A DNA stretch of 46,529 nucleotides from positions 1 through 46,529 of the IMG/VR virus record IMGVR_UViG_3300026457_000025. The stretch is one strand, 5' to 3'. The stretch comes from a virus. The position numbers and the translations under genes were made by a program. Of this stretch, positions 2,968 through 46,529 are shown in pieces. Position 1 is the stretch's first letter. Each line of letters opens with the position of its first letter. The notes beneath the pieces are model-generated. The model was given only the letters and a program-made list of their open reading frames with translations. It was not told the DNA's origin and ran no database searches.

Positions 2968-4407
2968 TTATCCTAATGCAATTGCAATTGCAGTAGCAAA
3001 GTCCTGAGTAGCGGCAGTACCTGTTTCATCAGGCAGCGTAAATGTGCGATCAGCCGTTGGATTTGCTGGAGCTAATACCGTTTCAAAGGCATCAACACCA
3101 GAACCTTCAAAGGTGATGCCAGAAGAATCCAGAACAATGCTGTTAGCTGTACCAACAGCCTTAACATAAATAGCATCTGAAGTTAACGAAAGTAAACCCG
3201 CAACTGTTGTGGTTGTACTGCCTAATGCAACAGATGTTGAACCAAGCGTAAAGCTGGAGTTCTGCAGTTGGCTGTTGGGAATGGCGCTGGTGCCAAACTC
3301 ACCTGTGCTGCTGTTGTAGGTTAAACCGGAACCAACAGCAACACTGAAGTGAGCGCGTGCTTCGCTAGCAGATGGACCTGTGTATGTAATAACGCCAGTG
3401 GTGTTGTTATAGCTAAGAGAACCATCACCACCGCTGTCTGTAACGCTAATTGCCAGGCGGGAGCGGGTATTGGTGTAATAAAGATTGGTGTTCTCAGGAA
3501 CAACGCTGGTATCTAAAGTTGTTGCAACAGCTTGATTACTGACATTACCTAAAAAGATACGTCCACTATTGAGGTTGGGAGTAGCGTTAGTACGACCCGG
3601 ACCAAGAACAAGAACACGACCATTAACACCAACATCAGTAACCTTACCGATGTTTTGAATTAAGTTTCCCTCTCCAGTTGGAGGCGTTGTTGTAAACGTA
3701 CCTGGTGTTGTGCCGACATAAATTGTCTGGCCAACAGTGTAAGTACTGGTATCAATTTGTTTTGCAATACCAATAGCAACAACACTGCCGTTATTGCCAC
3801 TAGGAATCTGCTCATAGGCCAGGCCAATGGCTGGCATCTTGGCAGGATTACTGGCGTCAGCAGGGGCTACAAGCGGACGGCCGGAGGCATAACCTGCAAT
3901 GTAAACTGGAGTACCACGAGGAATGGCAGAGCCAGTTTCATTACGAACTAGCTCAATGATGGTGGCAGCAGGGCCAACGTCATAAGCAGGAGAGTTACCA
4001 AGAGCAACAGCTGTTGTAATACCAAACGCATCAATAATGTTAATAACACTATTGGTTAACGAGGCATTTGGAATATTTGCTAAAGAATATTGGCCAGTGC
4101 TGCTGTTATAAGTAATACCCGTTGCTGTTGATGCGCTAAACAACCCACGAACAACAGAGTCGGTAACCTGAGTAAAGGTAAAGGCGCCAGTACTGGAGTT
4201 ATAAGTTAAGCTTCCAAGTCCAGTATTAGGAGCTGGATTTGTCGTTGATAACGAGATAGACCCGCGTGCACGAGTATCTGTGTAGTAAAGATTAGTACCT
4301 TCTGCTAGATCAGTTGTAGTATTACCAGCAAGATCAAGCTTATCTGTAGGAGTATTGACCTCCTGAAAATAACCGTTGACTAATGCTAGGGCTTTACGTG
4401 TTGCCAT
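2968..4407 (-). CDS. large tail fibre with LYYTDTRAR and TYNSSTG repeats
   Basis: 479 aa. Repeats of the cyanophage fibre type: TNLYYTDTRAR near residue 39 and TNLYYTNTRSRLAIS near residue 300, alternating with LTYNSSTGAFTF, ITYNSSTGQYSL, LSYNNTTGVITY and LTYNSSTGEFG. A non-repeat insert (about residues 150-270: IPRGTPVYIAGYASGRPLVAPADASNPAKM...) resembles head domains of other phage structural proteins. Likely a trimeric fibre shaft plus head. Confidence 0.82.
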   Translation of the reverse strand: MATRKALALVNGYFQEVNTPTDKLDLAGNTTTDLAEGTNLYYTDTRARGSISLSTTNPAPNTGLGSLTYNSSTGAFTFTQVTDSVVRGLFSASTATGITYNSSTGQYSLANIPNASLTNSVINIIDAFGITTAVALGNSPAYDVGPAATIIELVRNETGSAIPRGTPVYIAGYASGRPLVAPADASNPAKMPAIGLAYEQIPSGNNGSVVAIGIAKQIDTSTYTVGQTIYVGTTPGTFTTTPPTGEGNLIQNIGKVTDVGVNGRVLVLGPGRTNATPNLNSGRIFLGNVSNQAVATTLDTSVVPENTNLYYTNTRSRLAISVTDSGGDGSLSYNNTTGVITYTGPSASEARAHFSVAVGSGLTYNSSTGEFGTSAIPNSQLQNSSFTLGSTSVALGSTTTTVAGLLSLTSDAIYVKAVGTANSIVLDSSGITFEGSGVDAFETVLAPANPTADRTFTLPDETGTAATQDFATAIAIALG

Positions 4408-4411
4408 CTTA

Positions 4412-4939
4412 TTAGCTCAGAAGGATAGGAACTTCGGGTTTAATGCAGAGTTGGGCAGTGCTTCCTGCCTCTCCAACCCGCGTAACAAATTGACCTGCTG
4501 TAGAAGGCGGCGTCAAGGTAATGGATCCTGCACTGGCAGCAGATAAGAAATAAATTTCACCTTCATTCAAGCCAGAAACTGACAAAACTCCACCAACTTG
4601 AATAGTAATTGTTAGGCCAGTGCCTTTATTTTCTTTTGCAAATCCAAGGACAGTTGCTTGATCTACCGTGCCACTAGCAATTGCTTTATAAACTTTTCCG
4701 TCTGCAGAGCTAACATAAACAGCTTGACCTTGTACTAATGTTTCTCCTGCAATCAGATCAATCTCCAGGCTACCTGCACGCCTGGTAGGAAAACCTTCTT
4801 TTAAATCAATGAGAGCATCGACAAGACCACGGTAGTTTGGTGCATAAGGTTCTCGTGCCATTGTTACACCTTCTCCAATCATCAGGTCAACAAGGACCGC
4901 CAGAGCACCTTCAATATTAGGTTCGTATCCGGTAGCCAC
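4412..4939 (-). CDS. beta-rich structural protein of the fibre cluster
   Basis: 175 aa. A helical N-terminus (IEGALAVLVDLMIGEG, LVDALIDLKEGF) is followed by a small beta domain: GETLVQGQAVYVSSADGKVYKA, TVLGFAKENKG, IQVGGVLSVSGLNEGEIYFLS, TPPSTAGQFVTRVGEA and IKPEVPILLS. This domain recurs at the ends of phage fibre and decoration proteins. It is the first gene of its transcription direction after the divergent region 4940-5012, so it may be read from its own promoter. Confidence 0.72.
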   Translation of the reverse strand: MATGYEPNIEGALAVLVDLMIGEGVTMAREPYAPNYRGLVDALIDLKEGFPTRRAGSLEIDLIAGETLVQGQAVYVSSADGKVYKAIASGTVDQATVLGFAKENKGTGLTITIQVGGVLSVSGLNEGEIYFLSAASAGSITLTPPSTAGQFVTRVGEAGSTAQLCIKPEVPILLS

Positions 4940-45856: not shown

Positions 45857-45866
45857 GTTCAGATCA

Positions 45867-45890
45867 AGCCAGGCTTCACGAGGCCTGGCT
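45867..45890 (+). terminator. hairpin after ArdC-like gene
   Basis: AGCCAGGC-N8-GCCTGGCT, a perfect 8-pair stem, 10 bases past the stop. No U run follows. The base stretch after it (TCTAACCGCTTC) is also found after the stop at 38829. Confidence 0.6.
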
Positions 45891-45958
45891 CTAACCGCTT
45901 CTGAAGTGCGGGTAACGCCTCATGAAGTAAATCAAAAGGCAACGAAACTCTACCATTG

Positions 45959-46255
45959 ATGAAAGGTTTTGTCAGCTCAACGCAACCCACACGCACTGCT
46001 AGTTATTGGGTTGCCTGTTACTCAAAAGAAGATGAAGATGTTCCGATGGGTATTCACAAAAAAGTTTTGAAGTATAAGGTAGGACAGGATAAAGAGAAAC
46101 TTATTATTCGGTACTGCCACCAGTTGTTTGATCTCAACCGCACCATCTGGGATGTGCTTGTGCACCAGGGGCCATCAGAAGTTCCAGAACACGGCGATCA
46201 AGTCGTGATGCGCATGAGTCGTGATCAGTTCCGTGGCTCGACAATTGTTCGTTAA
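45959..46255 (+). CDS. hypothetical protein
   Basis: 98 aa from the ATG at 45959. Mixed alpha/beta (TASYWVACYSKEDEDVPMGI, LKYKVGQDKEKLIIRYCHQLFD, VHQGPSEVPEHGDQVVMRMS). Its 3' end overlaps the RNA promoter at 46238. No family recognised. Confidence 0.6.
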   Translation: MKGFVSSTQPTRTASYWVACYSKEDEDVPMGIHKKVLKYKVGQDKEKLIIRYCHQLFDLNRTIWDVLVHQGPSEVPEHGDQVVMRMSRDQFRGSTIVR

Positions 46256-46266
46256 TCCTTTATAAT
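46238..46266 (+). promoter_or_regulatory. near-consensus sigma-70 promoter of the terminal RNA
   Basis: TCGACA (46238-46243, five of six -35 bases) and TATAAT (46261-46266, exact -10) are 17 bases apart, the ideal spacing. The predicted start is about 46273. No other promoter in the window is this strong, and no protein-coding start follows within the visible sequence. Confidence 0.75.
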
Positions 46267-46272
46267 TTTTTT

Positions 46273-46529
46273 GGTTCTGATCAGACCCTCGTGGCCACGA
46301 GAACGTCCAGTTACTTTCAGGCGTAACTGGATACCTGATATCACAGAGTGGAAGCTGTGATGTCAACGATGAAGCAGAAAGAGGAATGGGGGCCGACCCT
46401 CATTTAAAACCCGTGAACGGGATCCTCTTCTGTTAAAAATTTTTGTAGGGGCGCAGCCCCACCGATAGCTACACGGCAGGGCTGTTCACTTACCAGCAGA
46501 AGGAAACCACAAAAACTTCTGCTCCCCAG
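46273..46529 (+). ncRNA. probable large structured non-coding RNA, 3' end outside window
   Basis: At least 257 bases past the promoter without a convincing gene, folding into consecutive stems: palindrome CTCGTGGCCACGAG (46288-46301); 8-pair CCAGTTAC/GTAACTGG (46307-46330); 7-pair ATCACAG/CTGTGAT (46340-46361); a 10-pair closing stem with one bulge (46375-46385 with 46423-46432) that encloses two hairpins, ATGGGGG/CCCTCAT (46386-46403) and CCCG-TGAA-CGGG (46410-46421); GGGGC-GCA-GCCCC (46448-46460); and 8-pair AGCAGAAG/CTTCTGCT (46495-46523). CAGCCC (46454-46459) can also pair with GGGCTG (46479-46484), a possible pseudoknot. No tRNA fold seen. Family unknown. Confidence 0.65.

Follow-up and report, generated by a model that had tools for sequence, protein, structure and literature searches.

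We analyzed a virus contig of 46.5 kb from IMG/VR (hereafter the window), whose portal protein shares 53% identity over 96% with that of Synechococcus phage S-EIVl and matches no other phage record searched. Near its right end, immediately to the left of the RNA that is our main subject (RNA1), lie ThyX and an anti-restriction/metalloprotease-like (ArdC-like) gene. An 83-kb contig, nearly identical to the window, extends beyond the right edge. Based on the portal match, these neighbors and the 83-kb contig, we infer that the window derives from an S-EIV1-like cyanophage and treat it as such. The contigs in our sample are mostly metagenomic. The features of the locus are the following:

45858..45943, + strand: candidate third structured element (RNA3), conserved in 7 sequences, with an S-CBS4 match
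46238..46266, + strand: sigma-70-type promoter, TCGACA-17-TATAAT
46273..46440 (3′ end approximate), + strand: RNA1, structured non-coding RNA of ~165 nt, delineated by fold, covariation and covariance-model matches
46273..46287, + strand: RNA1 hairpin H0, core UCUGAUCAGA, palindromic in all members while its sequence varies
46288..46301, + strand: RNA1 hairpin H1, perfect palindrome CUCGUGGCCACGAG with a self-complementary GGCC loop
46306..46331, + strand: RNA1 hairpin P2, optional (ten-member alignment A2; missing in L016, L012 and L050)
46337..46364, + strand: RNA1 hairpin P3 with the conserved loop AGUGGAAG; 9/9 pairs change on both sides
46366..46375, + strand: RNA1 conserved strand ACGAUGAAGC (alignment A2; also in S-CBS4)
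46375..46433, + strand: RNA1 three-way junction P4 (covarying helices 3-5; found in S-CBS4 by model R3)
46386-46403, + strand: P4a, loop CCGA
46410-46421, + strand: P4b, loop UGAA
46448..46529, + strand: first two thirds (5′ side) of the pseudoknotted RNA2, whose remaining ~35 nt lie beyond the window (L002 5575-5610)

The promoter and the extent of the RNAs

A first-pass annotation had proposed a near-perfect sigma-70 promoter at ideal spacing that drives a single, highly structured RNA of at least 257 nt. The promoter stands: it carries 11 of the 12 consensus bases around a spacer of 17, TTTATAAT and the start GGTTCTG are kept in homologues, and the -10 box recurs though the upstream genes differ. 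Its -35 box overlaps the 3′ end of a 99-aa ORF (45956-46255), and the count of such sites in the region (2, against 1.9 expected) does not exceed chance. The structure claimed for the RNA is likewise borne out, as the + strand of 46273-46529 has a folding energy of -98.2 kcal/mol, which 0/200 shuffles reach (shuffled mean -70.7, z = -5.57). The - strand is much weaker (z = -2.48). The computed fold also contains the multibranch helix, closed by about 10 pairs. The claim of one RNA across 46273-46529 had to be abandoned. In L012-L016, homology runs to ~46428 and resumes at ~46447 after 240-800 nt, which often hold an opposite-strand gene; since homologues thus part the two halves, we recognize two RNAs, namely RNA1, from 46273 to ~46440, and, from 46448 onward, a different RNA family that the edge of the window truncates. 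The two lie directly side by side in the lineage of the window itself, where one transcript could cover both. Extension to the right, which had been suggested as a check, did yield near-identical contigs that cross the edge, but what continues there is RNA2. A conserved protein frame through the region, named beforehand as a refuting outcome, is not found: the frames of RNA1 hold stops and show out-of-frame indels among homologues of 142-183 nt, none being conserved, and conserved RNA1 overall measures 134-183 nt.

RNA2 (5492-5612 in L002) was found in 27 contigs by one strict pattern. It comprises two stacked stems, the motif UUACCAG-N5-GGAA-N5-AAAAAC-N5-CUCCC and, on the 3′ side, a hairpin that pairs through its loop with the first loop. 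Covariation is seen in 18/27 pairs; in the loop-loop helix, which is 99.2% paired, 4/6 pairs have two-sided changes. RNA2 is carried by S-EIV1-like phages, by L086 with T4-like cyanophage genes, by L112, a GC-rich phage contig, and by L090, which is binned with an Acidimicrobiales MAG; in L019-L021 it is present and no RNA1 was found. Across 118 genomes of the order of that MAG, RNA2 is present only in the contig first found, so this is probably phage DNA rather than a host RNA. RNA1 conversely occurs without RNA2 in G009, and G010 has only a 23-nt, chance-level RNA2 match. At first sight, the RNA2 region seemed to encode a short peptide (LFTYQQKETTKTSAPQGL...); this was ruled out, because the stems and the pseudoknot covary across relatives. 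With no Rfam match, RNA2 is, judged from its sequence, a separate, uncatalogued pseudoknotted RNA family common to unrelated phages.

Upstream of the 99-aa gene, the candidate RNA3 (CAAGC..CACGAGGC..CGGGTAACGC) has two or three possible hairpins. It is also seen in L039 (3981-4085; about 66349-66413 of the S-CBS4 record) and stays beside RNA1 even where the 99-aa gene is lost (L012, L050).

Fold, covariation and distribution of RNA1

The conserved fold of RNA1 opens with two palindromic hairpins and an optional third hairpin, followed by one that has a AGUGGAAG-type loop and by a three-way junction. Covariation of the stems, which the first-pass annotation had named as a further refutation test, is found in both a close and a diverse set of members, scored by pair counts which, for RNA1 as for RNA2, do not amount to an R-scape test. 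In alignment A2 (ten close members), the 31 pairs in five helices are 99.0% paired, 14/31 have two-sided changes, and 0/500 shuffles equal this. In alignment A6 (18 diverse members), which was fitted to the structure of the model and hence leans towards it, 98.3% of pair cells form, 27/31 pairs have two-sided compensatory changes and the covariation score is 0.737, against 0.209 +/- 0.017 in shuffled alignments and at most 0.142 in slid controls. The DNA pattern used to fetch members through P4 itself selects part of P4a, whereas H1, P3 and the outer P4 stem are free of such selection; the H1 stem is 100% paired among the 18 members, with changes on both sides in 5/5 pairs. About 24 paired cells in A6 are G-U, which the other strand would render as A-C mismatches, and this identifies the + strand as the RNA. 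By eye, the P2 loop (CCUCGUC or UUUCAGG) is complementary to a nearby downstream strand (CGAGG, GAGGA, AGGGA or CCUGA) in L017, L018, L141, L161, L162 and the window, where CCUGA lies downstream of P2; a second pseudoknot, formed by the P2 loop and this strand, is possible.

Covariance model R1 recovers L017 and L018, which lie outside its training, at 2.5e-10 and 3.7e-17, respectively, and the broader model R3 places RNA1 on G015 and G017, contigs fetched only for RNA2, at E about 1e-12; all these E-values are rough, owing to a shortened calibration. R1 finds a single copy per record in 14/17 records, and it scores all 19 further contigs fetched by the P4-junction pattern, including L145, L147 and the L142 group. 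Weak second R1 matches in L142, L146, L150 and L157 are to a terminator and were left out of A6. In total, RNA1 is present in at least 34 IMG/VR contigs. In S-EIVl, in CL131 and in the T4-like isolates S-B68, S-N03, MA10, S-CREM2 and S-CRM01, there is no convincing match for RNA1 or RNA2; S-CRM01 has a match of 13.8 bits, and one in MA10 was rejected as it overlaps a sigma-factor gene and resembles a terminator-like chance match.

RNA1 has no match in Rfam 15: scans of the window are empty at gathering level and at chance level when permissive, and weak matches to Cyano-2 and CyVA-1 score far under threshold, on the other strand. The earlier statement that the RNA belongs to no recognized class is accordingly upheld, while the classes then offered as candidates (GOLLD, ROOL, a HEARO/IscB guide RNA and introns) find no counterpart in these scans or in an RNA of this length. 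Literature searches returned no description of RNA1 or RNA2. We regard it as virtually certain that RNA1 is a real structured RNA family, and the family is very probably undescribed. We hold it most improbable that RNA1 is a self-splicing intron or guides an IscB/TnpB-type nuclease, readings which only its size and complexity favor: RNA1 matches neither HEARO nor the group I or group II intron families of Rfam, the TnpB zinc-ribbon family is above cut-off in 0/13 RNA1 records, and no interrupted gene was noticed around it. The search for IscB (RRXRR) was also empty, though its control failed too, so that IscB is only weakly excluded.

Genomic neighbors of RNA1

The feature downstream of RNA1 varies between lineages, being RNA2 in the window, a small convergent - strand gene in L012-L016, a hydroxylase-like gene in L017 and L018, a GP88-like gene in L050, L143 and L155, and tRNAs in the L142 group, L145 and S-CBS4; we read these names from the translations rather than from HMM results. 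This variation makes it unlikely that RNA1 serves the downstream gene in cis as a 5′ leader, be it a riboswitch, an attenuator or a leader-peptide element, with the P4 stem as terminator. A + strand gene follows in L017, L018, L043, L050 and L155, such a role being possible in the first four, and in L018 a run of U6 after P4 precedes the gene start; however, most members are without a U tract, and RNA1 does not hold a constant position before a consistent gene class. A short ATG frame (MKQ...) that starts in the ACGATGAAGC motif would fit a leader peptide, but it was rejected as not conserved, since L016 and L027 have only MKQ* and L018 lacks it altogether.

In the L142 group, RNA1 is directly followed by tRNA-Leu(UAA) and in L145 by tRNA-Arg(UCU). 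The terminase of the L142 group is 77% identical to that of the isolate S-CBS4, and RNA1 of the group lies past terL in the place that matches. In S-CBS4, gp007 and gp008 are separated by an unannotated stretch (about 4370-4877 of the record, - strand) that carries an RNA1-like array and a tRNA-Thr. The array has the hairpin GCAUUCGCGAUGC, to be compared with GCUUUCGCGAAGC in the relatives L142-L158, then a hairpin whose loop reads GGGGAAG, the motif GGACGAUGAAGCAGCGGGAG and a three-way junction with loop CCGCA, with the tRNA-Thr beginning four bases after the junction; H0 is palindromic and there is no clear H1. Model R1 does not place RNA1 in S-CBS4, and R3 does so with only 12.2 bits (E 0.0034-0.013, the lower value with filters off on a 3.4-kb stretch, of which it is the best match), so that the assignment also draws on synteny, the H0 hairpin and the ACGAUGAAGC-P4-tRNA arrangement. 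By position and fold, S-CBS4 probably carries an RNA1 member. Adjacency to a tRNA amounts to two or three independent cases.

In S-CBS4 and L144, Rfam recognizes a Glutamine-II riboswitch (Downstream-peptide motif) after the tRNA, which shows that the Rfam scan works in S-CBS4-like phages. The riboswitch is, like RNA1, a cyanophage RNA, but its structure is unrelated and Rfam recognizes it and not RNA1. The three elements form an RNA gene cluster (RNA1 - tRNA - Glutamine-II riboswitch) at 886-1160 of L159 (S-CBS4) and 5032-5333 of L144. L144, an S-CBS4-like contig, additionally has an Rfam match to abiF RNA (3158-3194; 41.9 bits, cut-off 37), with a tRNA-Ile directly after.

The position just past terL in S-CBS4-like phages, with one or two short genes between, together with the self-complementary loops described below, might point to a role in packaging, in which RNA1 would sit on the terminase as a ring like phi29 pRNA, a phage RNA of about 120-170 nt that works as an oligomer. 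The phi29 pRNA acts with the ATPase gp16 and binds the connector; no packaging ATPase of this type was noticed here. We consider this very unlikely, as RNA1 is usually not beside packaging genes, lying in S-EIV1-like phages among ThyX/ArdC-like genes far from terL, and the loops of the pRNA ring are two-partner and non-self-complementary, in contrast to those of RNA1.

Probable self-association and a possible role in trans

Throughout the members, the 5′ end of RNA1 consists of two tandem hairpins with self-complementary loops whose sequence varies (GGCC, AGCU, GCGC). H1 takes the forms CUCGUGGCCACGAG, CCAGUGGCCACUGG, CUGUAGCUACAG, CCAGUAGCGCUACUGG, CUCUCGGCCGAGAG, CCUGGCGCCAGG, ACGCUGGCCAGCGU and CCUGUGCGCACAGG, with L161 providing one more GCGC loop, and the H0 cores UCUGCAGA, UCUGAUCAGA, GGUCCGGCCGGACC, GUACUGGCCAGUAC, GGCGUUGGCCAACGCC and UUCGCGAA are palindromic in 18/18 rows. 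Every H1 loop is complementary to itself (100% of loop pairs), and double changes convert GGCC to AGCU and to GCGC; these loop positions are unable to pair inside one tetraloop and nonetheless change on both sides. The background rate of self-complementary loops, taken from comparable hairpins across the fetched DNA, is 7%. Palindromic loops are shared by descent, so the independent loop changes are few (about three). Predicted H0-H1 dimers are ~10-21 kcal/mol more stable than two monomers, a gain which any palindrome would yield and which is therefore only consistent with self-association. On these patterns, RNA1 probably self-associates.

The same palindromes, lying at +1 to +30 next to the start site, could instead be operator or replication-origin elements that act as DNA, with the RNA fold as a by-product, and the cumulative GC skew is low in the 45-51 kb of the 83-kb relative that holds RNA1. 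That low is broad, though, and repeated at the contig end; the palindrome sequences vary freely, unlike the site of one operator; and P3 and P4 are not DNA palindromes, yet all helices covary. Further, G-U pairs are kept in RNA1, and since the G-U variants of H1 (L006, L143, L154) retain the RNA pairs while breaking the DNA palindrome, RNA is favored over an operator. We thus hold the DNA reading to be quite improbable, though a role of H0 and H1 as DNA dyads beside the start site keeps a small probability.

To our knowledge, self-assembling natural RNAs are rare, their best-known phage examples being GOLLD and ROOL, which extend to many hundreds of nucleotides and are hard to manipulate. Another such RNA, OLE, binds membrane proteins such as OapA; it is long, whereas RNA1 is short and phage-borne. 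RNA1 differs from GOLLD and ROOL in its length (~165 nt) and architecture, and the covariance models of GOLLD, ROOL and OLE do not match it at the curated score. GOLLD and ROOL are phage-encoded non-coding RNAs, often beside tRNA genes, that self-associate by kissing loops (PMC12286853), and RNA1 is similarly phage-borne and, in some lineages, beside tRNA genes. The comparison made in the first-pass annotation was thus a good guess on habit (phage, tRNA neighbors, self-association), not on family. GOLLD, ROOL and OLE are homo-oligomers, which RNA1 resembles, at the sequence level, in its self-complementary, covarying loops: the tetranucleotide of the OLE dimer contact switches between GGCC, GAUC and AGCU, and in the cryo-EM work on OLE, ROOL and GOLLD such palindrome switching was taken as evidence of two-copy contacts (PMC12286853).

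We think it rather likely that RNA1 is a phage-encoded, self-associating, trans-acting RNA. As such, it would be the product of a stand-alone non-coding RNA gene of cyanophages with its own sigma-70-type promoter, belonging to a previously uncatalogued family. The 5′ hairpins, as their self-complementary loops strongly suggest, would join RNA1 copies into a homodimer or small oligomer. The dimer would present the P3 loop, the ACGAUGAAGC strand and the junction loops, and in the infected cell it may serve, in trans, as scaffold or decoy for some factor of the host or the phage. The 3′ end would be generated by RNase P where a tRNA abuts and by termination or trimming elsewhere. More tentatively, and with considerable doubt, we posit a functional class of self-assembling phage RNAs of which RNA1 would be the smallest member known. 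Its tandem hairpins would build an RNA-only dimer or higher assembly during cyanophage infection; RNA1 would be made together with tRNAs or RNA2, depending on the lineage, and would serve the takeover of host translation or RNA metabolism. RNA1 would then be a compact (~165 nt) version of a self-associating RNA in which evolution has already swapped loops, carried by phages whose hosts belong to a globally important photosynthetic group. Given this compact size, these natural loop swaps and a probable member in the sequenced isolate S-CBS4 (host Synechococcus CB0101), RNA1 would make the role of self-associating phage RNAs directly testable.
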